NCBI GenBank assembly: GCA_903870815.1
Contig: CAIQEI010000086.1
Coordinates: 1-34,577 of the forward strand
Origin: an uncultured Verrucomicrobia subdivision 3 bacterium
Lineage (GTDB): Bacteria; Verrucomicrobiota; Verrucomicrobiia; Limisphaerales; UBA11358
Direction: 5' to 3'
DNA length: 34,577 nt
The position numbers were made by a program, and so were the translations under genes. Positions 5,775 to 25,195 of this stretch are shown piece by piece (position 1 is the first letter of the stretch; every line of letters begins with the position of its first letter). The notes under the pieces were generated by a model. The model was given only the letters and a program-made list of their open reading frames with translations. It made no database searches and had not been told where the DNA came from.

Positions 5775-5922
5775 AAGCCCGTTCCGCTTCCACTTGACTC
5801 CCACCGCCTGCCCCTTCATTTACCAACAGCTTACTGGCACTGGCTTGTCTTCTTTTGTTTAGTAAATGGCAATTTCTGCAAAGCCGGACTGATCGCAATT
5901 GATCAAAATGGGGAGGTTGACG

Positions 5923-6300
5923 ATGGAACCGAATCAAAATCCTTATCTGGTCTTGGTTTTGCTAATGGTGGCGGCCGTGGGCTTTGCGCTGACACCGCTC
6001 GCGGCGGCGTGGGCGTGGGCTCATTTCTTCTCGCCCCGGAAACCGGGCCAGGACAAGAATGACACTTACGAATGCGGCCTTGCCTCCAAGGGTGACGCTT
6101 GGATTCATTTCCGTTCGGAATACTACCTATACGGCATCATTTTCCTGGTGTTCGACGTGGAGACGATTTTTCTGCTGCCGTTTGCCGTTTCCTTCACCGG
6201 CCTGACAGTCGGCGCGTTCGTGGCGATGATTATTTTTCTGGTCCTGCTGGTGGAAGGCTTGGTCTGGGCCTGGCGGAAAGGATTTTTGACCTGGCGCTGA
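5923..6300 (+). CDS. nuoA: NADH-quinone oxidoreductase subunit A (NuoA)
   Basis: Membrane subunit at the junction of the quinone site and the membrane arm of complex I. 125 residues with three transmembrane helices (about residues 8-35, 63-88, 91-115). Hallmarks: [35 protein letters not shown] with the conserved acidic pair in helix 2. ATG 5923 is preferred because GGGAGG (5911-5916) sits 6 nt before it; an in-frame ATG at 5908 and TTG at 5899 lack that spacing. First gene of the 12-gene nuo operon; 17 bp separate it from nuoB. Confidence 0.96.
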
Positions 6301-6317
6301 CGCCGGAAAGGATTGCC

Positions 6318-6932
6318 ATGATTGACGAAGGCCTGAAAAGTGAATTGCAGAAGCAGGGGGTCTATGTGACGTCGTTGCAGGAGTTGTATAATTGGGGCCG
6401 CGCGAACTCCGTGTGGCCGCTGACGTTCGGGCTCGCCTGCTGCGCCATTGAGATGATGGCGGCGTCAATGTCCCGCTTCGATCTCGCGCGGTTTGGCGCG
6501 GAAGTCTTCCGGCCGTCGCCGCGCCAGGCGGATTTGATGATCGTGGCCGGCACCGTCACCAAAAAAATGGCCCCGCTGGTCGTGCGCCTGTACAACCAAA
6601 TGCCGGAGCCGAAATACGTCATCGCCATGGGCGCGTGCGCGATTTCCGGAGGGCCGTTCAAGCAGGGCTACAACGTTCTCAAGGGCATTGACCGTTATCT
6701 GCCGGTGGATGTGGCGATTCCCGGCTGCCCGCCGCGCCCGGAGGCGCTGATTCACGCGATCATGACGTTGCAGGAAAAAATCCGGAACCAGGATCTCACT
6801 GGCCCGAATCGCCCGCGCCATTTAAACGCCGAAGTTGACGGCGAATATCCGGTGCCGGCATACGGTGAACACGATTTGGAGCCCCCGAAAAATCCCGAAG
6901 TCTGGCAGCCGCCGATAATGACTAGAAAATAA
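6318..6932 (+). CDS. nuoB: NADH-quinone oxidoreductase subunit B (NuoB)
   Basis: Peripheral subunit that carries cluster N2, the last Fe-S centre before quinone. 204 residues. The N2 ligands are present: the adjacent pair C41-C42 in [11 protein letters not shown]107 in MGACAISGG and C137 in [12 protein letters not shown] 6318 is chosen over upstream frame extension because it gives the usual N-terminus and has AAAGGA upstream. The C-terminal 30 residues after NRPRHLN are hydrophilic and proline-rich. A 62-bp gap with a strong hairpin separates it from nuoC, unlike the tight spacing at many of the other junctions. Confidence 0.97.
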
Positions 6933-6938
6933 ATATAA

Positions 6939-6985
6939 GGAATCCAGGAAACCATGAGGAAGAAATTCATGGTTTCAAGGGTTCC
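6939..6985 (+). promoter_or_regulatory. Long hairpin in the nuoB-nuoC spacer
   Basis: GAAACCATGA (6948-6957) pairs perfectly with TCATGGTTTC (6967-6976) over a 9-nt loop. An outer stem, GGAATCC (6939-6945) with GGGTTCC (6979-6985), adds 7 pairs with one G-U. The nuoC ATG follows 9 nt later, and the only Shine-Dalgarno-like run (AAGGG, 6977-6981) lies inside the 3' arm. The structure could slow nuoC translation, protect mRNA ends, or simply be a dispersed repeat. Confidence 0.6.
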
Positions 6986-6994
6986 TGATAAAAA

Positions 6995-7642
6995 ATGGAA
7001 ACGCTCGAACAAATCAAAGCACGTATCGAAGCCGCATTGCCGTCTGCTAAGATTGATATCGTCGCGAACGAATGTCCGGCTGGTGAGCGTTCATTGCTTG
7101 TGGATGCGGCAAATGGTTTCCTGATCGCGAAATTTCTCCGCGACGACGCGCAGTTGAAGCTGGATTATTGCTCAAATGTCACCGGCGTTGACTGGCCGGA
7201 CAAGGAACTCACCGAAAAAACCAGGGTGAAGCAAGTCGTGGACGGCGTGGAAAAGGAAGTCGAAGAAGTCAATAAGACCATCCGCCCCGGCTATCTCGAG
7301 GTGGTTTATCATCTCTATTCCATGGCGCTGAAGCATGGGCCGGTCGTGCTGCGGTTGCGCACGGAAAATCGCGCGGACCAGACGCATTTGCCATCACTGA
7401 CGCCGCTTTGGCGCGGCGCGGAATTTCAGGAGCGCGAGGTTTATGATTTATATGGCGTGATTTTTGACGGTCACCCCGATTTACGCCGCATTTTGATGTG
7501 GGACGAATTTGTCGGCTTCCCGATGCGCCGCGATTACATCGCGCCGGACGATTTTGAATACGAGCCAACGCCCCACGATGAAGTTTTGGTGGAGGCGAAA
7601 AAACATTATCCGGTTGAGCCGAAAGCGGAGGTGAAAGTGTGA
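6995..7642 (+). CDS. nuoC: NADH-quinone oxidoreductase subunit C (NuoC)
   Basis: 30-kDa peripheral subunit that packs against NuoD near the quinone site; it has no cofactor. 215 residues. The family signature is clear: WRGAEFQEREVYDLYGVIFDGHPDLRRIL followed by GFPMRRDY. Residues about 70-95 hold a charged insertion (KTRVKQVVDGVEKEVEEVNK) between the DWPDKEL strand and the YLEVVYHLYS strand, longer than in E. coli-type proteins as I recall. The gene is separate from nuoD, not fused, and its stop overlaps the nuoD start (GTGA). Confidence 0.96.
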   Translation: METLEQIKARIEAALPSAKIDIVANECPAGERSLLVDAANGFLIAKFLRDDAQLKLDYCSNVTGVDWPDKELTEKTRVKQVVDGVEKEVEEVNKTIRPGYLEVVYHLYSMALKHGPVVLRLRTENRADQTHLPSLTPLWRGAEFQEREVYDLYGVIFDGHPDLRRILMWDEFVGFPMRRDYIAPDDFEYEPTPHDEVLVEAKKHYPVEPKAEVKV

Positions 7643-8811
7643 GCGCAATTGCCGCCATCCCGCCGAAAAGTTACGAAGTGAAGCCGAAGCTCGACGAGAG
7701 CGGCACGCCCATTGGTGAGCTGCTGGAAATCTCAATGGGGCCGCATCACCCATCCACGCATGGCGTGTTCCGCATGGACGTCGTGCTGGACGGCGAAACG
7801 GTGGTGAAACTCAAGCCGGTGTTTGGCTATCTGCACCGTAACCACGAGAAAATCGGCGAGAACATTTCGTATCTCGCTTCGATGCCTTACACCGACCGGC
7901 TGGATTATTTCTGTTCGATGACGAACAATTGGGCTTACGCGCTCACGGTCGAGAAGCTTGCCGGCTTGGCGGTTCCGGAACGCGCTGAATATATCCGCGT
8001 CATCATGGCCGAACTCACGCGCCTACAGAATCACACGTGTTTGATCGGTTTTTTTGTGCAGGACATGGGCGCGCTCGGCACGCCGATGATGTATGCCTTT
8101 CGCGAACGGGAAAAGATCCTCGACCTCTTCGAGTCCGTCAGCGGCGCGCGGATGATGTGCAATTACATGCGTTTTGGCGGTGTCCGCGTGGACGTCAATG
8201 ATGAGTGGATTGCGCAGACGAAAACGGTGGTCAGCAACTACAGCAAGTTTCTCGATGAGTTCGGCACCTTTCTTACCGAAAACGAAATCGTCCTCGCGCG
8301 TTCGCAATTCGTCGGCGTATTGCCGAAAGAACTCGCGATCAATGCGTCCATTACCGGTCCGATGCTCCGCGCCGCTGGGGTGAACTACGACCTCCGCAAG
8401 GTGGACAAATACGGGATTTATAGCCGGTTCAATTTCCAAGTGCCGGTCGGCGAGCACGGCGACATTTACGACCGTTACATGGTGCGTGTATTGGAGATGC
8501 GCGAGAGCATCAAAATATTGGAGCAGGCGTTGCGCGACATTCCGGCTGGACCGGTCATGGACCCGAAATCGAAGCTGCGCGGTTTTCGCCCGAAGCCCGG
8601 CGAAGTATACGGTCGCGTCGAAGGCCCGAAAGGCGAACTCGGATTTTATCTCATCAGCGACGGTTCGCCAAATCCGTATCGCTACCGCGTGCGCCCGCCA
8701 AGTTTCGTCAATCTGACCATTTTGGAAGACATGTGCCTCGGTCACCGAATTTCCGACGCCGTGGTTATTCTCGGCAGCGTGGACATTGTGCTTGGTGAGG
8801 TGGACCGATGA
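7639..8811 (+). CDS. nuoD: NADH-quinone oxidoreductase subunit D (NuoD)
   Basis: 49-kDa subunit, related to the [NiFe]-hydrogenase large subunit, forming most of the quinone cavity. 390 residues. Motifs: ISMGPHHPSTHGVFR (the HPSTHG quinone-site loop), GYLHRNHEKIGE, YTDRLDY, RFGGVRVDV, and the C-terminal CLGHRISDAVVILGSVDIVLGEVDR. The start is GTG 7639, overlapping the nuoC stop by 4 nt and preceded by GGAGG (7626-7630). The next gene is nuoI after 22 bp; nuoE, nuoF and nuoG, often found here, are missing. Confidence 0.97.
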   Translation: MSAIAAIPPKSYEVKPKLDESGTPIGELLEISMGPHHPSTHGVFRMDVVLDGETVVKLKPVFGYLHRNHEKIGENISYLASMPYTDRLDYFCSMTNNWAYALTVEKLAGLAVPERAEYIRVIMAELTRLQNHTCLIGFFVQDMGALGTPMMYAFREREKILDLFESVSGARMMCNYMRFGGVRVDVNDEWIAQTKTVVSNYSKFLDEFGTFLTENEIVLARSQFVGVLPKELAINASITGPMLRAAGVNYDLRKVDKYGIYSRFNFQVPVGEHGDIYDRYMVRVLEMRESIKILEQALRDIPAGPVMDPKSKLRGFRPKPGEVYGRVEGPKGELGFYLISDGSPNPYRYRVRPPSFVNLTILEDMCLGHRISDAVVILGSVDIVLGEVDR

Positions 8812-8833
8812 AAACCGATTTGAGGGTGCAACC

Positions 8834-9493
8834 ATGTTAGGCGAGCAAATCATCAAAGGCATGGCGGTGACCGCCAGGAATTTCTTCGGGAGCTACGTCT
8901 CCAAGGAACGCCTGACTACCGTGCAATATCCCGAAGAGCACCTGGCGCAAAAAGAAAACACCCGGCAATTTCCTTTCCTCGTTTATGACGGCGACGATTG
9001 GGAAAAAGGCCTGCGCTGCGTGGCTTGCCAGATTTGCGAGAAGGAATGTCCACCCAAGTGCATTTACATCGTCAAGAGCAAGGACAAGAAGCCCGATTAC
9101 AAGGGTCAGCCGCAGATTTATCCGCTCACGTTCGACATTGATATCTCCGTCTGCATGAGCTGCCAGATTTGCGTCGAGGTCTGCCCGTTTGAGTCCATCA
9201 AGATGGACACCAAGTTTGAATTGAGCACCGACGACCGCTTCGGCGGGTTGCTGCTGACTAAGGATAAACTGGCCAAGTCCAACACTTATTACCAGAAGAT
9301 GCATCCGCAGGATGCTGCTGAATCGGATGCGGTCATTGCCGGCGAAAAAGCCAAAGCCGAGGCCAAAGCCAAAGCCGCCGCTGAAGCAAAATTAAAAGCA
9401 GATGCCGAAGCGAAGGCGAAAGCTGCAGCAGCAGCAGCCACGGTCCCAATCGCGGCACCGGCGCCAACGCCTCCCCCGCCGCCGGCAAAATAA
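8834..9493 (+). CDS. nuoI: NADH-quinone oxidoreductase subunit I (NuoI) with an Ala/Lys/Pro tail
   Basis: Ferredoxin-like subunit holding two [4Fe-4S] clusters (N6a and N6b) that feed N2 in NuoB. 219 residues. Cluster ligands are C62, C65, C68, C72 (CVACQICEKEC) and C107, C110, C113, C117 (CMSCQICVEVC), with the cross-ligation spacing of the family. ATG 8834 is preferred, with GAGGGT upstream. After the usual GGLLLTKDKL end, about 50 extra residues form an Ala/Lys/Glu-rich stretch, likely helical, ending in PTPPPPPAK. Such a tail is not part of canonical NuoI. nuoI precedes nuoH here, the reverse of the common order. Confidence 0.96.
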   Translation: MLGEQIIKGMAVTARNFFGSYVSKERLTTVQYPEEHLAQKENTRQFPFLVYDGDDWEKGLRCVACQICEKECPPKCIYIVKSKDKKPDYKGQPQIYPLTFDIDISVCMSCQICVEVCPFESIKMDTKFELSTDDRFGGLLLTKDKLAKSNTYYQKMHPQDAAESDAVIAGEKAKAEAKAKAAAEAKLKADAEAKAKAAAAAATVPIAAPAPTPPPPPAK

Positions 9494-9511
9494 CTTTTAA
9501 GAACGAAACAA

Positions 9512-10708
9512 ATGTTCGACAAACTTGATCAAATCTTTGTGACCGCCCTGCACTGGTTGGTGAGCTTTGTGCCGGAAGCGTGGCGTTCACTGGCGTCGTC
9601 CTTGATTTGCATCGCTTTTATTTTGTCGGTTTTTCCCGCCGTGTTTTCCGTCACCACCATTTTCGAGCGCAAAGGCATCGGCCGCATCCAGAACCGCTAT
9701 GGCCCCAACCGGGTCGGCATTCCGTTCACGAAAATCCGTCTCGCCGGTTTTGGCCAGTTCATTCCTGACGGCGTGAAAATGCTCACGAAGGAAGACATCG
9801 TGCCGCGGGCGGCGGACAAAATTGTCCACTTCCTCGCGCCGGTAGTGATGCTGATTCCCGTGCTGCTGGCTTACGCGGTGCTGCCATTCGGCAGAAACAT
9901 GACCGTCACCGACTACGATGCTGGCCTGCTCTTTTTCTTCGCCGTCGGCGGCGCGGTGGAACTTTCCGTTTTCATGGCCGGCTGGTCGAGCCGTAACAAA
10001 TATTCGCTGCTCGGCGCAATGCGGGCCATCGCCCAGATGGTCAGCTACGAAATCCCGCTCATCCTTTCTGCCGTGACGGTGGTGATGGTCGTCGGCTCGC
10101 TGAACCTGAACGCCATCATTGCCCATCAAAACCAATATACTTTTGGCATCGCACACTGGTTTGTGTTCACACCGTGGGGCCTGGTTGGGTTCATTTTGTT
10201 CTTCATTGCCTCACTCGCCGAATCCAACCGCACGCCGTTCGATTTGCCCGAAGCCGAATCCGAAATCATCGCCGGCTATTTTACGGAATACTCCGGCTTC
10301 AAGTTCGCGCTGTTTTTCCTCGGTGAATACCTCGGCATGTTCGCCATCATCGGCCTCGGTATCACGCTCTTTCTTGGCGGCTGGACGTCGCCGGTGTCCT
10401 TCCTGACGTGGATTCCGTCGTATGTCTGGTTTTTCACGAAGCTGATGGCGATTGTGTTCGTCTTCATTTGGATTCGCGCCACGTTGCCCCGTTTGCGGAT
10501 GGATCAACTGATGAACTTCGCCTGGAAATTCATGCTGCCGCTCGCGCTTATCAACATCCTCGTCGCCGGCCTCTGGCATTACATGGCCGCCGACTGGCAG
10601 CGGTGGTTGGTTTGCTCCACGATTATTTTCGGCGCGTATGTCATTCTCGGTCGCGGCCTGATGCACAACCAAAAACTCGGCAAACGCATTTATCGCTACG
10701 CGGAATGA
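9512..10708 (+). CDS. nuoH: NADH-quinone oxidoreductase subunit H (NuoH)
   Basis: Membrane subunit that completes the quinone chamber and links it to the proton channels; usually eight helices. 398 residues. Motifs: ERKGIGRIQNRYGPNRVG, GQFIPDGVKMLTKED, AQMVSYEIPL, SLAESNRTPFDLPEAESEIIAGYFTEYSG (the conserved acidic loop), and WIRATLPRLRMDQLM. The extra loop around residues 200-215 (IIAHQNQYTFGIAHW) is seen in several non-proteobacterial homologues. A 103-bp spacer with repeats follows before nuoJ. Confidence 0.97.
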   Translation: MFDKLDQIFVTALHWLVSFVPEAWRSLASSLICIAFILSVFPAVFSVTTIFERKGIGRIQNRYGPNRVGIPFTKIRLAGFGQFIPDGVKMLTKEDIVPRAADKIVHFLAPVVMLIPVLLAYAVLPFGRNMTVTDYDAGLLFFFAVGGAVELSVFMAGWSSRNKYSLLGAMRAIAQMVSYEIPLILSAVTVVMVVGSLNLNAIIAHQNQYTFGIAHWFVFTPWGLVGFILFFIASLAESNRTPFDLPEAESEIIAGYFTEYSGFKFALFFLGEYLGMFAIIGLGITLFLGGWTSPVSFLTWIPSYVWFFTKLMAIVFVFIWIRATLPRLRMDQLMNFAWKFMLPLALINILVAGLWHYMAADWQRWLVCSTIIFGAYVILGRGLMHNQKLGKRIYRYAE

Positions 10709-10727
10709 AAAACGAAACTTGCCAAAT

Positions 10728-10811
10728 GGTTGAATGGTTGCGTCGTAGAAAACTCTCCGGGCCGTATGCCGCTTTGCCGATTCAACGTTTCAACTTTTCA
10801 ACCTTTTAACG
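10728..10811 (+). repeat. 8-bp tandem array and inverted repeat in the nuoH-nuoJ spacer
   Basis: Octamers TTCAACGT, TTCAACTT, TTCAACCT and TTTAACGA run in phase from 10781 up to and into the nuoJ start codon. GGTTGAA (10728-10734) is the exact inverse of TTCAACC (10797-10803), so the spacer can fold on itself. nuoJ has no Shine-Dalgarno sequence; the array occupies that position. Confidence 0.6.
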
Positions 10812-11330
10812 ATGTCTATATTTTTCATCCTCACCGCCATCGTGACGCTGTTCGCCGCCGCGTCCGCGATGAGCTTGCGCAATCTCGTGCATTGCGCGTT
10901 GGCGCTGGCGGTCTCTTTCACCGGCATTGCGGCGCTTTATCTACAGCTCGACGCGCAGTTCGTCGGGTTCGCGGAGATTTTGGTTTATGTCGGCGCCATC
11001 GCCATCCTTATCGTATTTGCGATTTTGCTGACGCGCAGCGGCGAAGCCCCCGAAAACAGTGTGCTGACCTCCGGCTGGATGGCCGGTATCGCTATTTCCG
11101 CCATGGTTTTCACCCTGCTGGGCTGGGCGGTGCTTAACAGTTCGGCGATTCCAAAAGAAAATCCGCCCGCGCCTGTGGCGACCGTCAAAAATGTCGGTGA
11201 TGCGTTAATGACGAAATTTGTTTTACCGCTCGAAATCATTGGTCTGGTGCTGACCGCCGCGATGATCGGTGCGGTCATTATCGCTTTGAAAGAGTCATCA
11301 AAAAGCGAAACTGCCGGGAGGGAATCATGA
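10812..11330 (+). CDS. nuoJ: NADH-quinone oxidoreductase subunit J (NuoJ)
   Basis: Five-helix membrane subunit between the quinone module and the antiporter-like subunits. 172 residues, normal length. The conserved third helix EILVYVGAIAILIVFAILLTR with its pi-bulge region is present, as is the N-terminal LRNLVHCALALAVSFTGIAALYLQL segment. The C-terminus is hydrophilic (KESSKSETAGRES). The stop overlaps the nuoK ATG (ATGA). Confidence 0.95.
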   Translation: MSIFFILTAIVTLFAAASAMSLRNLVHCALALAVSFTGIAALYLQLDAQFVGFAEILVYVGAIAILIVFAILLTRSGEAPENSVLTSGWMAGIAISAMVFTLLGWAVLNSSAIPKENPPAPVATVKNVGDALMTKFVLPLEIIGLVLTAAMIGAVIIALKESSKSETAGRES

Positions 11331-11638
11331 CTGCGCTCCAAGGTTGTCTTTTAATTTCCGCGCTGCTGTTCGCCATCGGCTTCGCCGGCGCGGTCACGCG
11401 GCGGCACGCCATTCTCGTGCTCATCGGCATTGAGCTGATGCTCAACGCGGCCAACCTCAATTTCATCGCGTTTTGGCGCTTCGGCCCGCACCCCGAGGCG
11501 CTGACCGGATTTATGTTCGTGCTTTTCTCCATGGCGCTCGCCGGCGCGGAAGCCGCCGTCGGCCTTGCGCTCGTCATCGCGATTTACCGCCACAAAAAAA
11601 CCTCCAATTTGGATGAAGTAAAGGAGCTGAAGGGATGA
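11327..11638 (+). CDS. nuoK: NADH-quinone oxidoreductase subunit K (NuoK)
   Basis: Three-helix membrane subunit related to MrpC, contributing two conserved glutamates to the proton path. 103 residues. The first glutamate is in GIELMLNAANLNF and the second in AGAEAAVGLALVIAIYR. Both junctions overlap by 4 nt (with nuoJ upstream and nuoL downstream), so J-K-L are likely tightly coupled in translation. Confidence 0.96.
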   Translation: MTALQGCLLISALLFAIGFAGAVTRRHAILVLIGIELMLNAANLNFIAFWRFGPHPEALTGFMFVLFSMALAGAEAAVGLALVIAIYRHKKTSNLDEVKELKG

Positions 11639-13740
11639 TCTGGATTGTCAAAAATCTCTGGCTGATTCCGGCGCTGCCTCTATTTGCCGCCGGGATTATC
11701 GCCGTCAACAAACAGCCGGCGCGCAAGCTTGCGGCCACGCTCGCCATCGGCTCGTTGGCTGTCGGATTCCTGCTTTCGCTCTGCGCGTTTAGCGCCACGC
11801 TTGGCCACCATGGCGAGGGCGTGTTTCGCGAAGTCTTTAGCTTTCCGTGGATCCAATTCGGCGGGCAATGGATGGACCTTGGCTGGGTGCTCGACCCCCT
11901 GACCGCCATCATGCTCGTGATGGTGACGTTCGTCGGCATGTTGATTTTCATCTTCAGCGTCGGCTACATGGCGCACGACGAGAATTTCATGCGGTTCTTT
12001 TGCTTCCTCGCGCTGTTCGCGGCGGGAATGCTCGGCGTCGTCATTGCCAACAATTTGTTTCTTTTTTTCGTATCGTGGGAAATCGTCGGCCTGACCAGCT
12101 ATCTGCTCATCGGTTTTTGGTATCACAAACCGAGCGCGGCGGCGGCGGCGAAGAAAGCCTTCATCACCACGCGCATTGGCGATCTTGGCCTGCTGCTTGG
12201 CATGGTCTGGCTCTACGCGCAAACCGGCACGTTGAATTTTTATGATGGCGGTCACGGCTGCATGGAAAGCACGCAACTCGTGAAAATGGCTACCCAAGTC
12301 ACTATCGGCGGCTTTGCTGTTTCTACTGTGGTTGGCTTTTTAATTTTTCTTGGTGCGGTCGGTAAATCAGGTCAATTCCCATTGCATGTCTGGTTGCCGG
12401 ACGCGATGGAAGGCCCGACGCCGGTTTCCGCCTTGATCCACGCGGCAACGATGGTTGCCGCCGGCGTATTCCTCGTTGCCCGTGTGTATCCCCTGATGGC
12501 GCAATCACCTTTATTGCATGGAACAATGTGGCTTGATACAACACCAATGCTCATTATTGTAACTTGGGTTGGTGCCATCACCGCGATTTTCGGAGCGAGC
12601 ATCGCCGTCGCGCAGAACGACATCAAGCGGATCCTCGCTTACTCCACCGTTTCGCAGCTCGGTTACATGATGATGGGTCTCGGCGTCGGTGGCGTGGCGG
12701 TCGGCATGTTCCATCTCATTACGCACGCATTTTTCAAGGCGCTGCTGTTCCTCGGCTCCGGCTCGGTCATCCACGGCTGCCATGAGGAGCAGGACGTCCG
12801 CAAAATGGGCGGGCTGAAAAAATATATGCCGGTCACGTTCGCGGTCTATGCCGTCGGCATGTTGGCGCTTGCGGGTTTCCCATTGTTCTTCTCCGGTTTC
12901 TGGAGCAAGGACGAAATTCTCCATTCCGCGCACAACTGGCCGGTGTCGCACATTCCATTTTTGCTGGGTTGCACCGGCGCGCTGTTCACGGCGTTCTACA
13001 TGACGCGGCAGGTTGCGCTGGTTTTCTTCGGCAACTACCGTGGTCATCAGCAAGCAGGCACCCCCTCCGCGCACGCTCATTCCCATGCCTCCGAATCCAG
13101 CCACGATCCGCACGAAAGCCCCGCCGTTATGACCGTTCCGCTCGTCATCCTCGCGGGGTTTGCCATTTTATTGGGCTTCGTCGGTACGCCCGCCTGGCCG
13201 TGGTTTGACGGCTACCTTACCGGCGAGGAATTTAAATTTGATTTAAGCAAGCTCACCGAACCCGGCACGCTTGGTCTGATGATTGCGTCGGCGGCGATTG
13301 TTTTCACCGGCCTCGGCCTCGGCTGGTTCCTCTACGGCAAACGCCCCCGCAAAACGGTGGCGGAAAAGGATGTTTTGGAAGCCGCGCAGCCGTTTTTCTA
13401 TAAAGTGCTCGAAAACAAGTATTTCATTGATGAAATCTACGAAGGGACCGTCATCCGGTTCAACGCCTTCGCCGCGTGGCTGTGCGATTTTGCCGATCGA
13501 TGGATTTTTGGTGGCGCTGTCATGCTCGTCAAATACATCACCGTCGGCCTGGCCTGGCTCTACCGGTTGACGGATGAATATTTCGTCAACCTCGGCTTTG
13601 ATACCGGCTGCGAAGCGCTGCGCGAAAGCGGCGGCGGACTTTCCAAACTGCAAACCGGCCGCGTGCAAACTTATCTCCGCGTCATCGGCGTCGCGCTGGT
13701 GGCGTTGATCATTTTCCTGATTTGGGGGCGCAAAGCATGA
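11635..13740 (+). CDS. nuoL: NADH-quinone oxidoreductase subunit L (NuoL), distal pump with long lateral helix
   Basis: Antiporter-like proton pump at the tip of the membrane arm. 701 residues, about 90 more than the E. coli protein as I recall it. Pump residues are intact: TM5 Glu in VSWEIVG, TM7 Lys in GAVGKSGQFPLHVWLPDAMEG, the KRILAYSTVSQLGY region and FWSKDEI near TM12. A His-rich loop (AHAHSHASESSHDPHE) precedes TM13. The C-terminal lateral-helix region, from D599 to L681 before the last helix, is about 83 residues, clearly longer than in standard NuoL. A longer lateral helix is what would be needed to span a fourth pump, matching the two nuoM genes next door. Confidence 0.96.
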   Translation: MIWIVKNLWLIPALPLFAAGIIAVNKQPARKLAATLAIGSLAVGFLLSLCAFSATLGHHGEGVFREVFSFPWIQFGGQWMDLGWVLDPLTAIMLVMVTFVGMLIFIFSVGYMAHDENFMRFFCFLALFAAGMLGVVIANNLFLFFVSWEIVGLTSYLLIGFWYHKPSAAAAAKKAFITTRIGDLGLLLGMVWLYAQTGTLNFYDGGHGCMESTQLVKMATQVTIGGFAVSTVVGFLIFLGAVGKSGQFPLHVWLPDAMEGPTPVSALIHAATMVAAGVFLVARVYPLMAQSPLLHGTMWLDTTPMLIIVTWVGAITAIFGASIAVAQNDIKRILAYSTVSQLGYMMMGLGVGGVAVGMFHLITHAFFKALLFLGSGSVIHGCHEEQDVRKMGGLKKYMPVTFAVYAVGMLALAGFPLFFSGFWSKDEILHSAHNWPVSHIPFLLGCTGALFTAFYMTRQVALVFFGNYRGHQQAGTPSAHAHSHASESSHDPHESPAVMTVPLVILAGFAILLGFVGTPAWPWFDGYLTGEEFKFDLSKLTEPGTLGLMIASAAIVFTGLGLGWFLYGKRPRKTVAEKDVLEAAQPFFYKVLENKYFIDEIYEGTVIRFNAFAAWLCDFADRWIFGGAVMLVKYITVGLAWLYRLTDEYFVNLGFDTGCEALRESGGGLSKLQTGRVQTYLRVIGVALVALIIFLIWGRKA

Positions 13741-15272
13741 ATCACTGGTTAACCATTCTTACGCTCGTCCCCTTCATCGGCGGCATTGTCATCGCCGGTC
13801 TTGGCGCGGACCGAAAAAATCTCGTTTGCGGCCTGGCGCTGGCGACCAGCTTGGTCGGACTTGGCGGCGCGCTTTGCCTGTGGCTGCATTTCGACACCAG
13901 TCAAGGCGGAATTCAATTTTCTGAACAGTTTGACTGGGTCCCGTCGCTCGGCATCCAATATTTCCTCGGCGTGGATGGCCTCGGCCTGCTCATGGTTTTG
14001 CTCACGGCGATTGTCACGCCGCTGGCGATTCTTGCCTCATGGCGCATGGACGACCGTCCGCACGTTTATCACGCGCTCATTTTGTGGTTGCAAGCCGGTT
14101 TGTTCGGCACGTTCACTGCGTTGAACTTTTTCCACTGGTTCCTGTTCTGGGAACTCGGCCTGATCCCCGCGTTTTTCCTGATCAAACTCTGGGGCGGCCC
14201 CAAGCGCGGTCCGGCGGCGACCCAGTTTTTTGTCTACACCATGGTCGGCAGCGTGGCCTTGCTATTGAGCTTTCTTGCGATCCGTCTGGCGACCGGCAGT
14301 TTCGATTTCATTGAGCTCGCTGGCCTGGCCAAAAGCGGCGTGCTCACGACCAAACTGCAGGCGGCCTTTGGCTGGAAGAATATCGGCCTGATTGTGTTCT
14401 TTGGCGCGTTTCTCGGCTTCGCGGTGAAAGTGCCGCTGATCCCGTTCCACACCTGGCTGCCGGCCGCGTATTCCGAAGCGCCCAGCCCGGTCACGATGCT
14501 GCTCACCGGCGTTATGTCCAAAATGGGCGTTTATGGTTTCCTGCGGATTCTGCTGCCGATTTTCCCCGACCAAATCCGGCAGGTGTTGACGCTGCTGCTC
14601 TGGCTTGCTGTGGCGACCATCGTGCTTTCCGCCTGCGCCGCGTTCGCGCAGCGTGACCTCAAGCGCATCATCGCCTATTCGTCCATCAACCATCTTGGCT
14701 ACTGTCTGCTGGCGCTGTTCGCCGCGACGGCCGTCGCGACCGGCGTGAATAATTCTGATTTGCAAAAAGCCGCTGCGCTGGATGGTGCGCTGCTGCAAAT
14801 GTTCAACCATGGCCTCACGGCCTCCGCGCTGTTCCTCTTCGTCGCGCTCTTGGAAAGACGCTCCGGCGGCCTGCGCGGACTCGATGATTTTGGCGGCCTC
14901 CGCAAAATTATTCCCGTGTTCACCGGCCTGATGGGCATTTCGATTTTTTCCTCGCTCGGTTTGCCGGGCTTGAATGGCTTCGTCGGGGAATTCCTGATTT
15001 TCAAGGGCGTGTTCCCGCTGGCGCCGTGGGCGGCGGCGATCTCGACCATCGGCCTGCTCGTCACCGCAATTTTTCTGCTGACGCTAATCCAGCGCGTCTT
15101 CTGCGGTCCGCTGAACGCACGCTGGGCGAAAATGCCCGACCTCACGACCGCTGAACGTTTTCTGGTGCTGCCGGGTATTGCGCTGATGTTTGTGCTGGGC
15201 ATCTGGCCCCAGTTTATTTTGGGCGCGGTGGATGCCACGGTAATGAAACTCGTGCAGCAATTAAACTTTTGA
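13737..15272 (+). CDS. nuoM: NADH-quinone oxidoreductase subunit M, first copy (NuoM1)
   Basis: Antiporter-like proton pump of complex I. 511 residues from ATG 13737, which overlaps the nuoL stop (ATGA). All expected pump residues are present: E139 in FWELGLIPAF, K231 in FAVKVPLIPFHTWLP, K262 in MSKMGVYGF, the LKRIIAYSSINHLGY stretch and E418 in GFVGEFLIF. It is only distantly similar to the second copy, so the pair is not a recent duplication. An 84-bp spacer with a heptamer array separates the two. Confidence 0.96.
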   Translation: MNHWLTILTLVPFIGGIVIAGLGADRKNLVCGLALATSLVGLGGALCLWLHFDTSQGGIQFSEQFDWVPSLGIQYFLGVDGLGLLMVLLTAIVTPLAILASWRMDDRPHVYHALILWLQAGLFGTFTALNFFHWFLFWELGLIPAFFLIKLWGGPKRGPAATQFFVYTMVGSVALLLSFLAIRLATGSFDFIELAGLAKSGVLTTKLQAAFGWKNIGLIVFFGAFLGFAVKVPLIPFHTWLPAAYSEAPSPVTMLLTGVMSKMGVYGFLRILLPIFPDQIRQVLTLLLWLAVATIVLSACAAFAQRDLKRIIAYSSINHLGYCLLALFAATAVATGVNNSDLQKAAALDGALLQMFNHGLTASALFLFVALLERRSGGLRGLDDFGGLRKIIPVFTGLMGISIFSSLGLPGLNGFVGEFLIFKGVFPLAPWAAAISTIGLLVTAIFLLTLIQRVFCGPLNARWAKMPDLTTAERFLVLPGIALMFVLGIWPQFILGAVDATVMKLVQQLNF

Positions 15273-15356: not shown

Positions 15357-16862
15357 ATGCTGGCCTGGACCATTTACATAACGTTTTTCGGGGTGCTGGT
15401 GCTGATGCTCCTGCCGCGCGACCAGCAGCGCGCCGCCCGCATCGTCGCCTTGCTCACGGCCATCGCCGGTTGCGTGGTGGCCTTTGTCGGTGCCATCCAG
15501 CAGGCCAATCCCGGCGAGGTTGCCACGATTGTCAAAGCCCCTTGGATTCCCAGTATCGGCGCGAATTACTATCTCGCCGCTGACGGCATCAGCTTGGTGC
15601 TGGTCGTCCTGACCGGTCTCGCCGCCGTCAGCGGAATCTTGTTTTCGTGGAACATTGAGAAGCGGACGAAGGAGTTTTTCGCCTTCTACCTCGCGCTCAT
15701 CGGCGGGGTGTATGGCGTGTTTCTGAGCTTCGATGTACTGCTGCTGTTCGTGTTTTACGAACTTACGATCATCCCGAAATATTTTCTTATCGCGCGCTGG
15801 GGTAGTACGCGCAAGGAATATGGCGCGATGAAGCTGGCGCTGTATTCCTTCGTCGGCAGCCACCTGGTGCTCATCGGTTTGATTGCGGCGTGGGTCGTGG
15901 CCAAAGGCCAGCTTGGCCACGCCTCTCTGGATTTGTTGGAATTATCCAAAGTGGCATTCCCCATCGCCTTTCAACACTGGGTGTTTCCACTGGTGTTCGT
16001 TGGCTTTGCGATTCTTGCGGGCATGTGGCCGTTTCACACGTGGGCGCCAACCGGCCACGTCGCCGCGCCAACCGCCGGTTCCATGTTGCTTGCCGGCGTG
16101 GTGATGAAGCTCGGCGCTTACGGGTGTCTGCGCGTGGCGATGGTGATGTTTCCCGAAGGCGTGCGGATGTGGCAGGGGGAAATCGCCTGTCTCGCCGTCG
16201 CCGGCATTGTGTATGGCGCGGGCGTGGCGCTGGTGCAGCGCGACTTCAAATTCGTCATCGGCTATTCCAGCGTGAGTCATATGGGCTTCGTGCTGCTCGG
16301 CCTCGCGACGCTCAACACCATCGGCCTGGACGGCGCGGTGCTGCAAATGTTCTCGCACGGCATCATCGCCGGCCTGCTGTTCGGCGTGGTCGGCCGCATG
16401 GTCTATGACCGTACGCATACTCGCGATTTCAACGATCTCGAAACCATGCAGCTGGGAAAACTCCTGCCGTTCGCGGGCGTGACGTTTGTCATCGCCGGCA
16501 TTGCTTCGATGGGTTTGCCTGGCTTCAGCGGCTTCGTCGCCGAATTTCAAGTGCTGATGGGTGCCTGGACCGTCTTCCCGAAGCTGACGATCCTCTCCGG
16601 CCTCGGTATTCTCATCGGTGTGGCTTACACGCTGCGCGCCATCCAAAAAGGGTTTTACTCCGACGCGCCGCCGAAGCCGGTTGACCACGCTCATCCGTTG
16701 AACCCCATTTCCATCCCGGAGCGTTTCGGCGCGGTGATGCTAATCGGCGCATCGCTGGTCGTCGGACTTTTCCCCGGCTTGCTGATGAACTGGATTGAAC
16801 CCTGTTTTAACTCTCCGCTCTCAATGTTTGCCCGCTTGCTGGTGAAAGGAGGTTCACAATGA
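15357..16862 (+). CDS. nuoM: NADH-quinone oxidoreductase subunit M, second copy (NuoM2), divergent
   Basis: Second NuoM-type antiporter-like subunit, 501 residues from ATG 15357 (a TTG at 15351 is an unlikely start). It keeps E135 in FYELTIIPKYFLI, K251 in MKLGAYG, the YSSVSHMGFVLLG stretch and E396 in GFVAEFQVL. The TM7 lysine (K234 in E. coli NuoM, in FAVK-P) is replaced by L220: the local sequence is GFAILAGMWPFHTWAP. A lysine appears instead at 141, six residues after E135. The LPDAH loop is also changed to APTGH. Either this copy pumps by a rewired path or it is a structural spacer. The stop overlaps nuoN (ATGA). Confidence 0.94.
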   Translation: MLAWTIYITFFGVLVLMLLPRDQQRAARIVALLTAIAGCVVAFVGAIQQANPGEVATIVKAPWIPSIGANYYLAADGISLVLVVLTGLAAVSGILFSWNIEKRTKEFFAFYLALIGGVYGVFLSFDVLLLFVFYELTIIPKYFLIARWGSTRKEYGAMKLALYSFVGSHLVLIGLIAAWVVAKGQLGHASLDLLELSKVAFPIAFQHWVFPLVFVGFAILAGMWPFHTWAPTGHVAAPTAGSMLLAGVVMKLGAYGCLRVAMVMFPEGVRMWQGEIACLAVAGIVYGAGVALVQRDFKFVIGYSSVSHMGFVLLGLATLNTIGLDGAVLQMFSHGIIAGLLFGVVGRMVYDRTHTRDFNDLETMQLGKLLPFAGVTFVIAGIASMGLPGFSGFVAEFQVLMGAWTVFPKLTILSGLGILIGVAYTLRAIQKGFYSDAPPKPVDHAHPLNPISIPERFGAVMLIGASLVVGLFPGLLMNWIEPCFNSPLSMFARLLVKGGSQ

Positions 16863-18325
16863 ACACCGTGAACTATCTGGAAATCTTAAGGCTCGCCGCG
16901 CCGGAAACCATCGTGACGGTGACGGTGCTGATCGTGCTCGGTGCGGATGTGACCGTGATGCGCGGGAAATCTATCGCCGCCCGTTTCAACGTCGGCGCGC
17001 TGCTTTCCATTCTCGGCTGTATCTTCGCCGCGCTGCTGGCCTTCACGCGCCACACCGAAGCGAACCTGTTCAACGGTCTGATGGTCGTCGATCCCTCGTC
17101 CGACTTTGTGAAGGTCGCCATCCTTGCCCTGACGGTTTTCACCATCCTGATTTCCACCTCCGCCAGGTTCACGGACCATGTCGGCGAATATCTTTCGCTG
17201 ATTCTGCTCGGCACCATCGGCCTGATGTTCCTGGTCAGCACCGAGGATTTGCTGATGGTTTTCATTGCTCTGGAATTTGCCAGTCTGGCGCTCTACATCC
17301 TCACCGCCTTCAACAAGCACAATGAGAAGTCCGCCGAGGCGGCGCTGAAATACTTTTTGTTCGGCGGCATGTCGGCGGCGTTTCTGCTGTTCGGTTTCAG
17401 TTTGCTCTATGGTATTTCCGGCTCTACCAATCTGCGCGAAATCGCCGTCGGCATCGCCGGCAAGGGATTTGATCCGCTGCTGCTCGTCGCGTTGGTGACC
17501 ACCATCATCGGCTTTGGCTTTAAAGTCGCTGCGGTGCCGTTCCACTTGTGGGCACCCGACGCTTACGAAGGCGCGCCCACGCCGAGTGCGGCGTTTATCG
17601 GGTCCGGTTCCAAAGTCGCGAGTTTCTACGTTCTCGCCAAGATTTTCACGCTCGGCTTCGTTGGCGCGGAAGGCAGCGCTGTGTGGCACGGATACCTTTC
17701 CGGCTGGACGCCGGTGTTCGCCATTGTCGCCGCGCTTTCGATGGTGCTGGGCAATCTCACCGCCATCGTGCAATCCAGCGTCAAACGCCTGCTGGCCTAC
17801 TCCGCCATTGCACACGCCGGCTACATGCTTCTCGGTGTGTTGTCCAACACGCCGGCCAGCGCGAGCGCGATGATGTTTTATGTCATTACCTACGCGTTGA
17901 CGACGATTGGCGCCTTTGGTGTGGTGATGGTCGTGGAGGAAGCCACCGGTGGCGACGCAATCAAGAACTTCGCCGGCCTGAGCCGGCGCGCGCCGGGATT
18001 GTCCCTGTGCCTGCTGATTTTTCTGCTCTCCCTGGGCGGCATTCCGCCGCTCGCGGGGTTCATTGGTAAATTTTTCCTGTTTAGTGCTGCTGTTAGTGCC
18101 GGTGCCAACCTCGGCCTGCTGTGGCTGGTCATTCTAGCTATCGCCATGAGCGCGGTTTCGTTCTACTACTACCTGCGGGTGCTCAAGGCGGCATATGTGG
18201 AGGACGCTCCCGGGGAAGCGCCGGCCATCAAAGTGCCGCTGTTGACGTTTCTGGCGCTGGTGTTGCTGGCACTGCTGGTAATCCTGTTCGGCTGTGTGCC
18301 GGGTCTGCTGACGCAGTTTCTCTAG
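16859..18325 (+). CDS. nuoN: NADH-quinone oxidoreductase subunit N (NuoN)
   Basis: Antiporter-like pump nearest NuoK and NuoJ. 488 residues, normal length. Pump residues: Glu in FIALEFASLALYIL (TM5), Lys in GFGFKVAAVPFHLWAPDAYEG (TM7), SGSKVASFY (TM8), VKRLLAYSAIAHAGYMLLG, and Lys in GFIGKFFLF at TM12, where NuoN normally has Lys in place of Glu. A near-perfect Shine-Dalgarno AAAGGAGG (16845-16852) lies inside the end of nuoM2. Last gene of the operon; a hairpin-forming repeat without a T tract follows at 18345. Confidence 0.96.
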   Translation: MNTVNYLEILRLAAPETIVTVTVLIVLGADVTVMRGKSIAARFNVGALLSILGCIFAALLAFTRHTEANLFNGLMVVDPSSDFVKVAILALTVFTILISTSARFTDHVGEYLSLILLGTIGLMFLVSTEDLLMVFIALEFASLALYILTAFNKHNEKSAEAALKYFLFGGMSAAFLLFGFSLLYGISGSTNLREIAVGIAGKGFDPLLLVALVTTIIGFGFKVAAVPFHLWAPDAYEGAPTPSAAFIGSGSKVASFYVLAKIFTLGFVGAEGSAVWHGYLSGWTPVFAIVAALSMVLGNLTAIVQSSVKRLLAYSAIAHAGYMLLGVLSNTPASASAMMFYVITYALTTIGAFGVVMVVEEATGGDAIKNFAGLSRRAPGLSLCLLIFLLSLGGIPPLAGFIGKFFLFSAAVSAGANLGLLWLVILAIAMSAVSFYYYLRVLKAAYVEDAPGEAPAIKVPLLTFLALVLLALLVILFGCVPGLLTQFL

Positions 18326-18344: not shown

Positions 18345-18396
18345 ACACGGATTGATCCACGTTTCTGCATCCGTGTAAATCTGTGTAATCCGTGTC
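18345..18396 (+). repeat. ATCCGTGT array and hairpin after nuoN
   Basis: ATCCGTGTAA, ATCTGTGTA and ATCCGTGTC run in tandem at 18369-18396. ACACGGAT (18345-18352) is the exact inverse of ATCCGTGT (18369-18376), forming an 8-bp stem with a 16-nt loop. No T run follows, so it is a poor intrinsic terminator but could protect the 3' end of the nuo mRNA. A related array lies at 33420-33449. Confidence 0.65.
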
Positions 18397-18448
18397 AAAA
18401 AATGGGTTTGTGAATCGGCCCAATCCGCGTAACCTTTCCGCACAATTT

Positions 18449-18832
18449 ATGAGCAACATTCCTTCCGACCTGAAATACGCCAAATCGCACGAATGGGTCC
18501 GCGTCAGCGGCGACATCGCCACCGTGGGCATCACCGACCACGCGCAGGCCGAGCTGACGGACATCGTGTTTGTGGAACTGCCTACCGTGGGGCGCCAGGT
18601 CAAGGCCGGCGAACCCTGCGCCGTGGTGGAATCCGTCAAGACCGCCAGCGACATCTATTCGCCCGTCAGCGGCGAAATCACCGCCGTCAATTCCGCCGCG
18701 GTGGACAATCCCGCGCTGGTGAACACCGCACCCGACAGCGACGGCTGGTTTTACAAAGTCAAATTGAGCAACGCAGCGGAACTAAATGCACTGCTCTCGC
18801 CGGACGATTACAAGAAGCAGATTGGCGTATAG
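18449..18832 (+). CDS. gcvH: Glycine cleavage system H protein
   Basis: Small lipoyl carrier that shuttles the aminomethyl group between GcvP, GcvT and the L protein. 127 residues. The lipoylated lysine is K64 in [14 protein letters not shown]. The N-terminal [12 protein letters not shown] and the [12 protein letters not shown]-terminal strand are typical. ATG 18449 gives the normal N-terminus; the frame is open further upstream through repeat sequence without a good start. LipA, which would make its cofactor, is encoded 2 kb downstream; its partner gcvT lies before the nuo operon. Confidence 0.96.
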
Positions 18833-19335: not shown

Positions 19336-20154
19336 TCACCAGTATTCTTCGACGTGGATGTTGCCGGGATTTTTGCTGTCGCCGCGCTTGAAACCTTTTT
19401 TCTCCAGCATCTCGGTCACGACCTTGATCATTTCCGGATTGCCGCAGAGGAAGACATCGGCGTGTTCCGGGTCGAGCTTCACGCCGGCGTCCTTGTCCAG
19501 CGCGTCCTGTTCCAGGATAGCCTGGATGCGCCCGATGCGCCCGAGGAAATGCTGATCCTGATCCGGCCGCGTGATGCTGGGGATATAGGTGAAGTTCGGG
19601 CGCAGGCGGGCGAGGGTTTCGAGTTCGCCGCGATAGCCGAGATCCCAACTGTAACGCGCGCCGTGCAGGACGACGAACTTGCGTTTCGTCTCGGTCGTCA
19701 GAATGGTGCGCAGCATGGAAACGTAGGGCGCTAGGCCGGTGCCGGTGGCGATGAGCACAGCGGTCTTGCCGGCTGGCGTGCGATCGAGCGTGAAGACGCC
19801 ACTGGCTTTCGGTCCGAGAAAAACCTTACTGCCGTGTTTCAAAGCAAACAGGCGCGGCGTGAGTCCGCCGCTGGTGATGAGCGTGATGTAAAACTCGACA
19901 TAGCGGCGCTCCACGCTGGCGGAGGCAATGCTGTAGGCGCGGCGGATCATCTTGTCGGCATCGGGCGAGGGCGTTTCGGTTTCCGCTCCCGCCACGCGTG
20001 GGGCGGATCCGGGCAGACCGAGCACGGCGAATTGGCCGGGCTTGAACTCAAACAGCTTGCCCTCGGGCCGCACGCGGAGCACGATCAGTTCCGGATGAAT
20101 TTGCTCGCGTCCGATGACGCTGGCGTTGCAGGAGATGGCGGTTTCGGTGCTCAT
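19336..20154 (-). CDS. fpr: Ferredoxin/flavodoxin-NADP+ reductase
   Basis: FAD enzyme that exchanges electrons between NADP(H) and ferredoxin or flavodoxin. 272 residues, the size of bacterial Fpr. FAD-binding RAYSIAS is at about residues 71-77, the NADP motif IATGTGLAPYVSML follows near 134, then FLCGNPEMI, and the protein ends in VEEYW with the terminal aromatic residue typical of this subclass. Divergent from the glutaredoxin-lipA pair across a 240-bp intergenic region. With no NuoEFG in the window, it could exchange electrons with the same ferredoxin pool as complex I; this is speculation. Confidence 0.93.
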   Translation of the reverse strand: MSTETAISCNASVIGREQIHPELIVLRVRPEGKLFEFKPGQFAVLGLPGSAPRVAGAETETPSPDADKMIRRAYSIASASVERRYVEFYITLITSGGLTPRLFALKHGSKVFLGPKASGVFTLDRTPAGKTAVLIATGTGLAPYVSMLRTILTTETKRKFVVLHGARYSWDLGYRGELETLARLRPNFTYIPSITRPDQDQHFLGRIGRIQAILEQDALDKDAGVKLDPEHADVFLCGNPEMIKVVTEMLEKKGFKRGDSKNPGNIHVEEYW

Positions 20155-20391: not shown

Positions 20392-20649
20392 ATGAAAATC
20401 CGCCTCTTCATCAAACCGTATTGCCCGTGGTGCCTCAAGGCTGTCGCGTGGCTTGATGCGCGCGGCATCAAATACGAGACCCTGAACGTGATTGTCGACA
20501 GCCAGGCGCTCACGGAAATGGTCAACCTGTCCGGACAGCGGCTCGCGCCGGTGATTGCGGTGGGCGATAAAATTCTCGCCGACTTCGGCCCGGAAGAGCT
20601 GGAAAAGTTTTGGAAACAATTTGAAGCCCCAGAAAAACCGCTGAAATGA
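20392..20649 (+). CDS. Glutaredoxin-like protein (CPWC)
   Basis: 85-residue thioredoxin-fold protein reducing disulfides or glutathione mixed disulfides, or handling Fe-S clusters. The active site is C11-PW-C14 in KPYCPWCLKA, in place of the classical CPYC. The cis-proline loop is in LAPVIAVGDK, and the acidic C-terminal helix FGPEELEKFWKQF is normal. ATG 20392 aligns with the remnant at 19174 and the family N-terminus; ATG 20374 is possible. The stop overlaps the lipA ATG (ATGA). Coupling to lipA, whose product loses an auxiliary cluster during catalysis, is suggestive of a supporting role. Confidence 0.9.
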   Translation: MKIRLFIKPYCPWCLKAVAWLDARGIKYETLNVIVDSQALTEMVNLSGQRLAPVIAVGDKILADFGPEELEKFWKQFEAPEKPLK

Positions 20650-21530
20650 CGACGACCGAATTGAAACCCCGCCTGCGCCTGCCCGATTGGCTGCGCATCA
20701 AGCTGCCCACGTCGGACAGCTTCGCGCAGACGCGCAACCTGCTCGGCGAACTCAAGCTGCATACTGTCTGCGAAAGCGCGAAATGCCCGAACCATTGGGA
20801 GTGCTGGGAAAAAGGCACGGCCACGTTCATGATTTCCGGCGACCGCTGCACACGGGCCTGCGGCTTTTGCGCCGTGTCCACCGCCAAGCCGCTGCCGCTC
20901 GAAGCCGACGAGCCGATGCGCGTGGCTGAGGCCACCCGCCGGATGAAGTTGAAACACGTCGTTATCACGGCCGTGGCGCGCGACGATATGGCCGACGGCG
21001 GCGCGGAACATTTTCGCCGGACGATCGAGGAAGTCCGTAAACTGAACCCCGGCATTGTCATTGAAGTGCTGGTGCCGGATTTTCAGGACAGCGACGACTC
21101 CATTGCCGCCGTGCTGACGGCGAATCCGCAAATCTTCAATCACAATCTGGAAACTGTCCGCCGCCTGACGCCGGAAGTCCGCCATCGTGCGACCTACGAC
21201 CGGTCGTTGAGCGTGCTGAAAAAGGTCAAGGAAGCGCGGGGGAATACGATCTACACCAAATCCGGCCTGATGCTCGGCCTCGGCGAACGCGAGGACGAAG
21301 TGCTGATAGCCTTGACGGATTTGCGCGCCGCCGGTTGTGACATTCTCACCCTCGGCCAGTATCTGCAACCGACGCTGAAGCATTTGCCGATGGTGGAATT
21401 TGTGTCGCCCGGGAAATTCGCGGAATACAAAGTGCGCGCCGGGAAAATGGGTTTCGTTCACGTCGCCAGCGGCCCGCTGGTGCGCAGTTCGTACCATGCG
21501 GACGAGTTCAACGCCCCCTCAGGGGAATGA
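20646..21530 (+). CDS. lipA: Lipoyl synthase
   Basis: Radical SAM enzyme that inserts two sulfur atoms into octanoyl groups on GcvH and E2 proteins. 294 residues. The auxiliary cluster ligands are C42, C47 and C53 (CESAKCPNHWEC). The radical SAM ligands are C68, C72 and C75 (CTRACGFC). GLMLGLGEREDEV and TLGQYLQPTLKHLP are typical, and the C-terminal RSSYHAD serine region that ligates the auxiliary cluster is present. It sits between gcvH and the 2-oxoacid dehydrogenase genes, whose products need lipoate. No lipB or lplA is visible. Its 3' end overlaps the convergent GNAT-like gene by 12 bp. Confidence 0.97.
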   Translation: MTTTELKPRLRLPDWLRIKLPTSDSFAQTRNLLGELKLHTVCESAKCPNHWECWEKGTATFMISGDRCTRACGFCAVSTAKPLPLEADEPMRVAEATRRMKLKHVVITAVARDDMADGGAEHFRRTIEEVRKLNPGIVIEVLVPDFQDSDDSIAAVLTANPQIFNHNLETVRRLTPEVRHRATYDRSLSVLKKVKEARGNTIYTKSGLMLGLGEREDEVLIALTDLRAAGCDILTLGQYLQPTLKHLPMVEFVSPGKFAEYKVRAGKMGFVHVASGPLVRSSYHADEFNAPSGE

Positions 21531-22937: not shown

Positions 22938-24131
22938 TTACAATTTTTCCGGTTGCCGCATCAAGTCGCTGATGCGCAGCAGCAGCCGGCCCGCCGCGCC
23001 CCCGTCCAGCACGCGATGGTCGAAGCTCAGGGTGAGGTAGGCTTCCATCACGGGCACGAATTGCCCCTTCGCCTCATCCCAATGCGGCATCCGCCGGCCG
23101 GCGCCGAGACCCAGCACTAGCGTTTGTTCGGGCAGGGGAATGGGCGTGGCCCAGATGAGTCCAAACGTGCCGAAGTTTGTCACCGTGGCCACTGAGCCGC
23201 CGGTGGCGTCCGCCGGCAGTTTTCTTTGCCGGGCGAGTTCGACCAGTTCGTTGTAGCGCAAAACGAGTTCCTTCAACGGCTTTTTATCCGCCCCGCGCAG
23301 AACGGGCACCAGCACGCCGTCTTCGGCTTCCACGGCGAAACCCACGTCAATCGCCGAGGGATGGACGATGTTGGTGCCCACCAAACGGCCGGCGACGGCG
23401 CTGTTTTCCGCCAGCGCCACCGCCAGCGCGCGCAATGCGTAAAGGGCCGGACCCGGTTTGGGTTCGCAGGTTTTTCGGTGGATCAGAACGGCGTCGAGTT
23501 GCACGGGTAAACCAACAGTGGCCAGCGGGCGGGTCCAGCTCCGGCGCATCGCATCGGCCACCGCCACGCGCATGGAGGATGCCTTGGTCAGCTTCTGCTG
23601 CTCCAGATTCGCCATGAACCTTTCAAAATCCTCCACGGTCACGCGGCCGGCCGCGCCGCTGCCGGCGATGCCCGCGAGGTCGGCGGCGCTCAAACCGAGT
23701 TCCTGCATCCGCGCCTTTAGCCGGGGCGACATGTAGCTGGCGCCGCTGGCGTTGGCGGGCACGGGCAGGCCGCGCACGGTCGGTTCCACGCGCGAACCGG
23801 TGCCGCTGCGCGGTTTATTGGTGATGGTTTCGGTGTCACCGGCCTTTGTCGGTGCCGGAGCGTCGAGGCCAAAACGGGCGGCCTCTTCCTTGGAAGCTTC
23901 GATTTTTCCCAGCACATCGCCGACGGCATAACTTTCGTTGAGCTGGGCGGAAAAACTTTCAATCCGGCCGCCGCACGGGGCGGTTACGGTCATGGTGGCC
24001 TTGTTCGTTTCAACCTCGATCAAGTCCTGTCCGCCCTCCACCTGGTCGCCGGGTTTCACTAGAAAATTGATGATGGCCGCCTCGGCGATGGATTCGCCAA
24101 GTTGGGGCATGATGATGGGAATCTGCGGCAT
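22938..24131 (-). CDS. Dihydrolipoamide acyltransferase (E2) of a 2-oxoacid dehydrogenase complex
   Basis: Core of the complex; transfers the acyl group from its lipoyl arm to CoA. 397 residues. One lipoyl domain (about 1-80) has the lipoylated lysine K44 in VETNKATM. A linker follows, then the peripheral subunit-binding domain (about 133-173, YMSPRLKARMQELGL to GRVTVEDFERF). The catalytic domain ends with the active-site SFDHRVLDGG. Third gene of the leftward E1 alpha-E1 beta-E2 operon, only 4 bp after E1 beta. Whether the substrate is pyruvate, branched-chain acids or acetoin is unclear. E3 is not in the window. Confidence 0.94.
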   Translation of the reverse strand: MPQIPIIMPQLGESIAEAAIINFLVKPGDQVEGGQDLIEVETNKATMTVTAPCGGRIESFSAQLNESYAVGDVLGKIEASKEEAARFGLDAPAPTKAGDTETITNKPRSGTGSRVEPTVRGLPVPANASGASYMSPRLKARMQELGLSAADLAGIAGSGAAGRVTVEDFERFMANLEQQKLTKASSMRVAVADAMRRSWTRPLATVGLPVQLDAVLIHRKTCEPKPGPALYALRALAVALAENSAVAGRLVGTNIVHPSAIDVGFAVEAEDGVLVPVLRGADKKPLKELVLRYNELVELARQRKLPADATGGSVATVTNFGTFGLIWATPIPLPEQTLVLGLGAGRRMPHWDEAKGQFVPVMEAYLTLSFDHRVLDGGAAGRLLLRISDLMRQPEKL

Positions 24132-24135
24132 AAAA

Positions 24136-25101: not shown

Positions 25102-25195
25102 TGGGGAAAGCCGGCCTGAAAATTGAAGCCTGGAGAAACCCGTCCGGCTGACCGCGCGGTTGGGCTTGCTGCATCCTGCCTGGCAATGTCTCCGT

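Follow-up and report, generated by a model that had tools for sequence, protein, structure and literature searches.

The window analysed here, a stretch of 34,577 nucleotides from an uncultured Verrucomicrobia subdivision 3 bacterium, carries on its plus strand a complex I cassette whose genes run nuoA B C D I H J K L M1 M2 N, an arrangement that is common to relatives too. The genes nuoA, B, C, D, I, H, J and K (5899..11638) are followed by nuoL (11635..13740; 701 amino acids), by two genes of the NuoM type, nuoM1 (13737..15272; 511 amino acids) and nuoM2 (15357..16862; 501 amino acids, with its ATG at 15357), and finally by nuoN (16859..18325). The window cassette contains no nuoE, F or G; a separate locus of the genome holds E, F and G with a complex of their own. 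The literature recognises 2M complex I by a lengthened NuoL, a second NuoM and the lack of NuoE/F (PMC6606698, PMC9040806), and on its gene content the window cassette is of this type. About 25 extra residues lengthen the lateral helix of its NuoL (the insert lies near 13460-13545), compared with the gain of 26 given for 2M complex I in PMC9040806. The NuoL stretch equivalent to E. coli residues 541-592 measures 81-82 residues in 14 of 14 2M complexes and 55-56 in 77 of 77 single-M complexes, against 52 in E. coli itself. Chadwick et al. (2018) reportedly described a 2M complex I of the Nitrospira type, with which, going by PMC6606698 and PMC9040806, the window cassette shares its two NuoM genes, a similar lengthening of the NuoL lateral helix and the absence of NuoEFG.

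Several neighbouring genes deserve mention. Approximately 1 kb past nuoN lies a ferredoxin-NADP+ reductase-like gene on the minus strand (19336-20154; best NCBIfam score 123.9 bits, below the cut-off of 390), which is of interest because the 2M complex lacks the NADH module. Genes at 3719-4858 (+), 18392-18832 (+), 20646-21530 (+) and 22938-26209 (-) make up a lipoate-dependent neighbourhood around the nuo cassette: glycine cleavage T and H protein-like genes stand on either side of it, and past it come a lipoyl synthase, confirmed by NCBIfam, and, on the opposite strand, pyruvate dehydrogenase E1- and E2-like genes. At the start of the window, a tyrosine-recombinase-like gene (194-1534, -) occupies one reading frame with a single in-frame stop at around codon 190, and its downstream half matches XerA and integron integrase models.

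NuoM2 scores 432.7 bits against the NCBIfam model TIGR01972 (NDH_I_M; curated cut-off 263.8), which places it in the NuoM family; the corresponding scores are 480.4 for NuoM1, 413.2 for the NuoM of the other complex in the same genome, and 440.7 for a NuoM from a single-M cassette (P0003). Its alignment with the NuoM of E. coli K-12 (from NC_000913.3), the reference for position numbers throughout, is free of gaps across the motif, and sets E135, K141, L220, K251 and E396 against E. coli E144, M150, K234, K265 and E407, respectively. Textbook NuoM features retained by this antiporter-like subunit are the TM5 glutamate (Glu135, 15759..15761), the central TM8 lysine (Lys251, 16107..16109) and a TM12 residue that is glutamate and not lysine (Glu396, 16542..16544). 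The TM7 lysine that forms an ion pair with the TM5 glutamate is absent: its place is taken by Leu220, encoded by CTT at 16014..16016, while NuoM1 keeps a lysine (K231, codon 14427-14429) at the matching site. A further lysine, Lys141 (AAA, 15777..15779), lies in TM5 six residues past Glu135, and is specific to the NuoM2 of 2M cassettes. These readings all agree with a first-pass annotation of the locus, which had also suggested that the extra subunit might be a non-pumping spacer, or might use a shifted lysine. An AlphaFold2 model of NuoM2 built from 38 sequences (mean pLDDT 94.7) has L220 as the final residue of a helix spanning 203-220, with the TM7 break (221-228) directly after it, and Foldseek TM-scores of the fold against the NuoMs of E. 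coli (3rko chain C) and Paracoccus were 0.92-0.93.

The other antiporter-like subunits are conventional in this regard. NuoM1 has lysine at position 234 in 49 of 49 sequences, and bears two basic residues that are specific to 2M complexes and missing from other NuoMs: one late in TM5 at E. coli position 155 (Lys in 43 and Arg in 6 of the 49; here K150, codon 14184-14186), and one at 412, after the TM12 glutamate (Lys or Arg in 46 of 49). The TM5 Glu, TM7 Lys and TM12 Lys of NuoN (E133, K217 and K395) are kept in all 53 2M cassettes and in all 125 single-M cassettes compared, and NuoL retains E144, R175, D178, K229, K342, K399 and D400 in 91 of 91. As aligned, NuoM is the only one of the compared antiporter-like subunits to have lost the TM7 lysine.

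To place Leu220 in context, the sampling of second NuoM genes took in the same genus, 16 more families within the order and another three within the class. Across the resulting 41 NuoM2 orthologs, position 234 is Leu in 40 and Met in one, never Lys, and position 150 is Lys in every case; the compared motif windows hold no substitute lysine in TM7. Glutamate occupies position 144 in every NuoM2 that carries Lys150, and three rows with Asp144 that BLAST had labelled as M2 are single-M proteins with Met150, and fall outside the 41. The Leu220/Lys141 pattern is, by these alignments, strongly conserved over a deep clade and no local accident. Sequencing error or misalignment at Leu220 was considered and rejected, given the agreement of 41/41 orthologs and the gap-free motif. 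The residues K265, K312, H322, H348 and E407 (in NuoM2's own numbering K251, N-side K298, H308, H334 and E396) are likewise invariant across all 41. In one genome NuoM1 (519044-520498, -) and NuoM2 (555338-556762, +) are separated by approximately 35 kb instead of being adjacent, and the residue pattern of this NuoM2 is unchanged.

Loss of the TM7 lysine extends well beyond two-NuoM complexes. A further 126 lysine-less NuoMs were aligned, all with Leu or Ile at 234, and most of these are the sole NuoM of their own cassette, in many phyla. The TM7 lysine is therefore not, on present alignments, a defining mark of the NuoM family as a whole, and its loss is not tied to the extra pump, as the first-pass annotation had supposed. 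When one genome of each species was scanned, with a single-M relative as the starting point, 80 loci with one NuoM each were returned, and the lysine was absent in 80/80, with GFGVLGALFPFHTWSPD and similar motifs in its place. According to their record titles, these loci include Bacteroides, Phocaeicola, Prevotella, Alistipes, Dysgonomonas and Rhodopirellula, as well as Myxococcales, Bdellovibrionales, Desulfobulbaceae, Zixibacteriota and Hydrogenedentes, and more lysine-less NuoMs came from additional searches that covered the phyla to which the Rhodopirellula, Myxococcales, Desulfobulbaceae and Hydrogenedentes loci belong. As these searches were seeded with lysine-less queries, they display the breadth of the trait and not its frequency or prevalence; a DNA motif count in Bacteroidota gave 5/247, with a motif overly strict for an estimate of prevalence. 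The single-M proteins of Bacteroidota, Planctomycetes, Myxococcales and others resemble NuoM2 in having Leu or Ile at the TM7 site, and in keeping the TM8 lysine, the TM12 glutamate and the histidines. Unlike 2M complexes, they have NuoL of normal length (in the 77 measured) and position 150 is nearly always Met: among the 126 it is Met in 120, Thr in five and Val in one, and Lys in none. In relatives there are also cassettes that pair two NuoL-like genes with a lysine-bearing NuoM and resemble the rhizobial 'green' complex I.

The same genome supplies its own example. A second complex I on contig C48 has the genes B C D E F G H I J K L M N in order (nuoA is unannotated in the stretch read), and its sole NuoM also has Leu at 234, within the motif GFGILVSLWPFHSW. 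Two adjacent TM8 lysines (VLKKFG) are present in this protein, in which K234 is missing and K312 is replaced by Asn; the extra TM8 lysine, at 264, occurs in 5 of the 12 NuoMs nearest to it, the C48 protein included. As the C48 complex combines NuoEFG with a lysine-less NuoM, loss of the lysine does not track the electron donor. This bears on the proposal that another ion is moved by NuoM2 and the lysine-less proteins related to it, or that they work mainly in reverse, from quinol to ferredoxin, with the gate tuned otherwise. Such a role would suit the absence of NuoEFG from the 2M cassette, the nearby ferredoxin-NADP+ reductase-like gene, and the reverse electron transport proposed for 2M complexes (PMC6606698), but a lysine-less NuoM in a complex that bears NuoEFG speaks against it, and we regard it as very improbable.

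A maximum-likelihood tree, built from 80 NuoMs, was used to examine the order of the changes. A single branch (SH-aLRT 100) splits the lysine-bearing from the lysine-less proteins, indicating one change at K234, and within the lysine-less part the NuoMs with Lys150 all lie on one side of a further branch (SH-aLRT 99), again indicating one change. The tree shows that loss of K234 predates the split of NuoM2 from other lysine-less NuoMs, and that NuoM2 inherited it from a wide lineage. NuoM1 falls in a group of its own that bears the lysine, and NuoM2 is therefore no recent copy of it. The gain of K141 is, as far as sequences can tell, a later and separate change, confined to the NuoM2 of two-NuoM complexes; since K150 arose once, a single event is all that ties it to the 2M arm. 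In trees of H, K, J, D, B and NuoN the 2M complexes occupy a branch of their own, with unstable deep neighbours, so that these trees favour neither NuoM1 nor NuoM2 as the later arrival in the complex.

This ordering weighs upon the shifted-lysine idea, by which K141 in TM5 would replace the lost TM7 lysine as the partner of Glu135 or as a proton station. The invariance of K141 in NuoM2, and its position on the same helix as Glu135, count in favour of such a replacement. Against it, the clade of loss is much wider than the clade of gain, the two substitutions being separate changes on the tree, and the other lysine-less NuoMs overwhelmingly have Met150 and never a lysine there. Further, a residue six places along an ideal helix is turned some 240 degrees from Glu135, and the C48 NuoM of the same genome has a second TM8 lysine instead. 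We therefore judge replacement unlikely. An acidic partner for K141 was sought, but neither NuoM2 nor 2M NuoN has gained an Asp or Glu in at least 85-90% of its sequences.

Published work on NuoM and its counterpart Nqo13 has the proton wire made up of the lysine in TM8, a histidine and the glutamate in TM12, and puts the ion pair to one side of it, about 14 A away, as a gate (PMC11496545); an N-side lysine also belongs to the wire, and the gate is the pair of TM5 Glu and TM7 Lys (PMC11496545, PMC13324432). Were NuoM2 a mere spacer, lengthening the arm or relaying a signal while moving no proton, its wire residues would be expected to drift under relaxed constraint. Instead, the central wire (K265, H322, H348 and E407) and the N-side K312 do not vary among the 41 orthologs, which makes a non-pumping spacer quite improbable. 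Two further observations count against it: the cassettes of its close relatives have no other NuoM, and the lateral helix of NuoL is lengthened, as expected for a real fourth pump. In its favour, NuoM1 remains as one NuoM with the full residue set, and mutagenesis found K234 of E. coli NuoM to be essential, according to PMC5061711, which cites that work.

On balance, we lean towards a reading in which NuoM2 is a working antiporter-like subunit of the 2M complex that conducts without the E144-K234 gating pair, and in which K141 serves an interface specific to 2M complexes; this rests on sequence comparison. Protons would pass along the conserved wire, from the N-side K298 through the central K251 and H308/H334 to E396. 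With the Glu-Lys gating ion pair beside the wire gone, Glu135 may be set by its neighbours, or may stay protonated. The positive charge of K141 would then serve a contact between subunits that is peculiar to the two-NuoM arm. Two NuoMs in series create one new contact, in which a NuoM follows the Glu407 of another NuoM, and an additional positive charge in TM5 would fit this setting. The role proposed for K141 can be likened to that of Arg175 in E. coli NuoL, which sits between NuoM E407 and NuoL E144 and bridges them (PMC13324432).

A broader form of this reading is also conceivable, though we hold it more tentatively, as something a little short of probable: that a widespread natural lineage of complex I pumps protons through a NuoM without the TM7 lysine or the gating pair, so that the Lys-Glu pair, regarded as the minimum for any antiporter-like subunit, is dispensable in NuoM, and that the TM5 lysine of 2M complexes was added for NuoM-NuoM or NuoM-NuoN contact. 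To our knowledge, pumping has been measured in none of the lysine-less NuoM complexes found here. PMC5061711 cites Euro et al. (2008) for the finding that E. coli loses quinone reductase activity when K234 is replaced. The 'domino' model requires the TM7 lysine of NuoM as a proton station, and counts the TM7 and TM5 sites as part of the required minimum (PMC10212512). Both points speak against function without the lysine.

The coupling in complex I between quinone reduction and proton pumping at a distance of some 200 A is still a matter of dispute. The TM7 lysine of NuoM is a necessary proton station in the domino model, while the 'wave' model takes the Lys-Glu pair as a gate. The lysine-less branch of NuoM thus constitutes a natural test of the pump mechanism, and complexes whose only NuoM lacks the lysine, among them complexes from cultured Bacteroides, Phocaeicola and Rhodopirellula, are ready tests of both models.

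Among known systems, E. coli NuoM shares with NuoM2 its fold together with E144, K265, K312, H322, H348 and E407, and differs in having K234 paired with E144, and Met at 150. In the open-access literature that was searched, which lacks most subscription papers, loss of the TM7 lysine is described for E. coli HycC alone and for no complex I, so the loss may have been noticed elsewhere. Unlike NuoM2, HycC is a subunit of formate hydrogenlyase, a hydrogenase complex, and not of complex I, and the single substitutions introduced into it were all without effect (PMC5061711). Like NuoM2, it has Leu (L208) at the site of NuoM K234, and keeps the TM5 glutamate and the TM8 lysine (PMC5061711).
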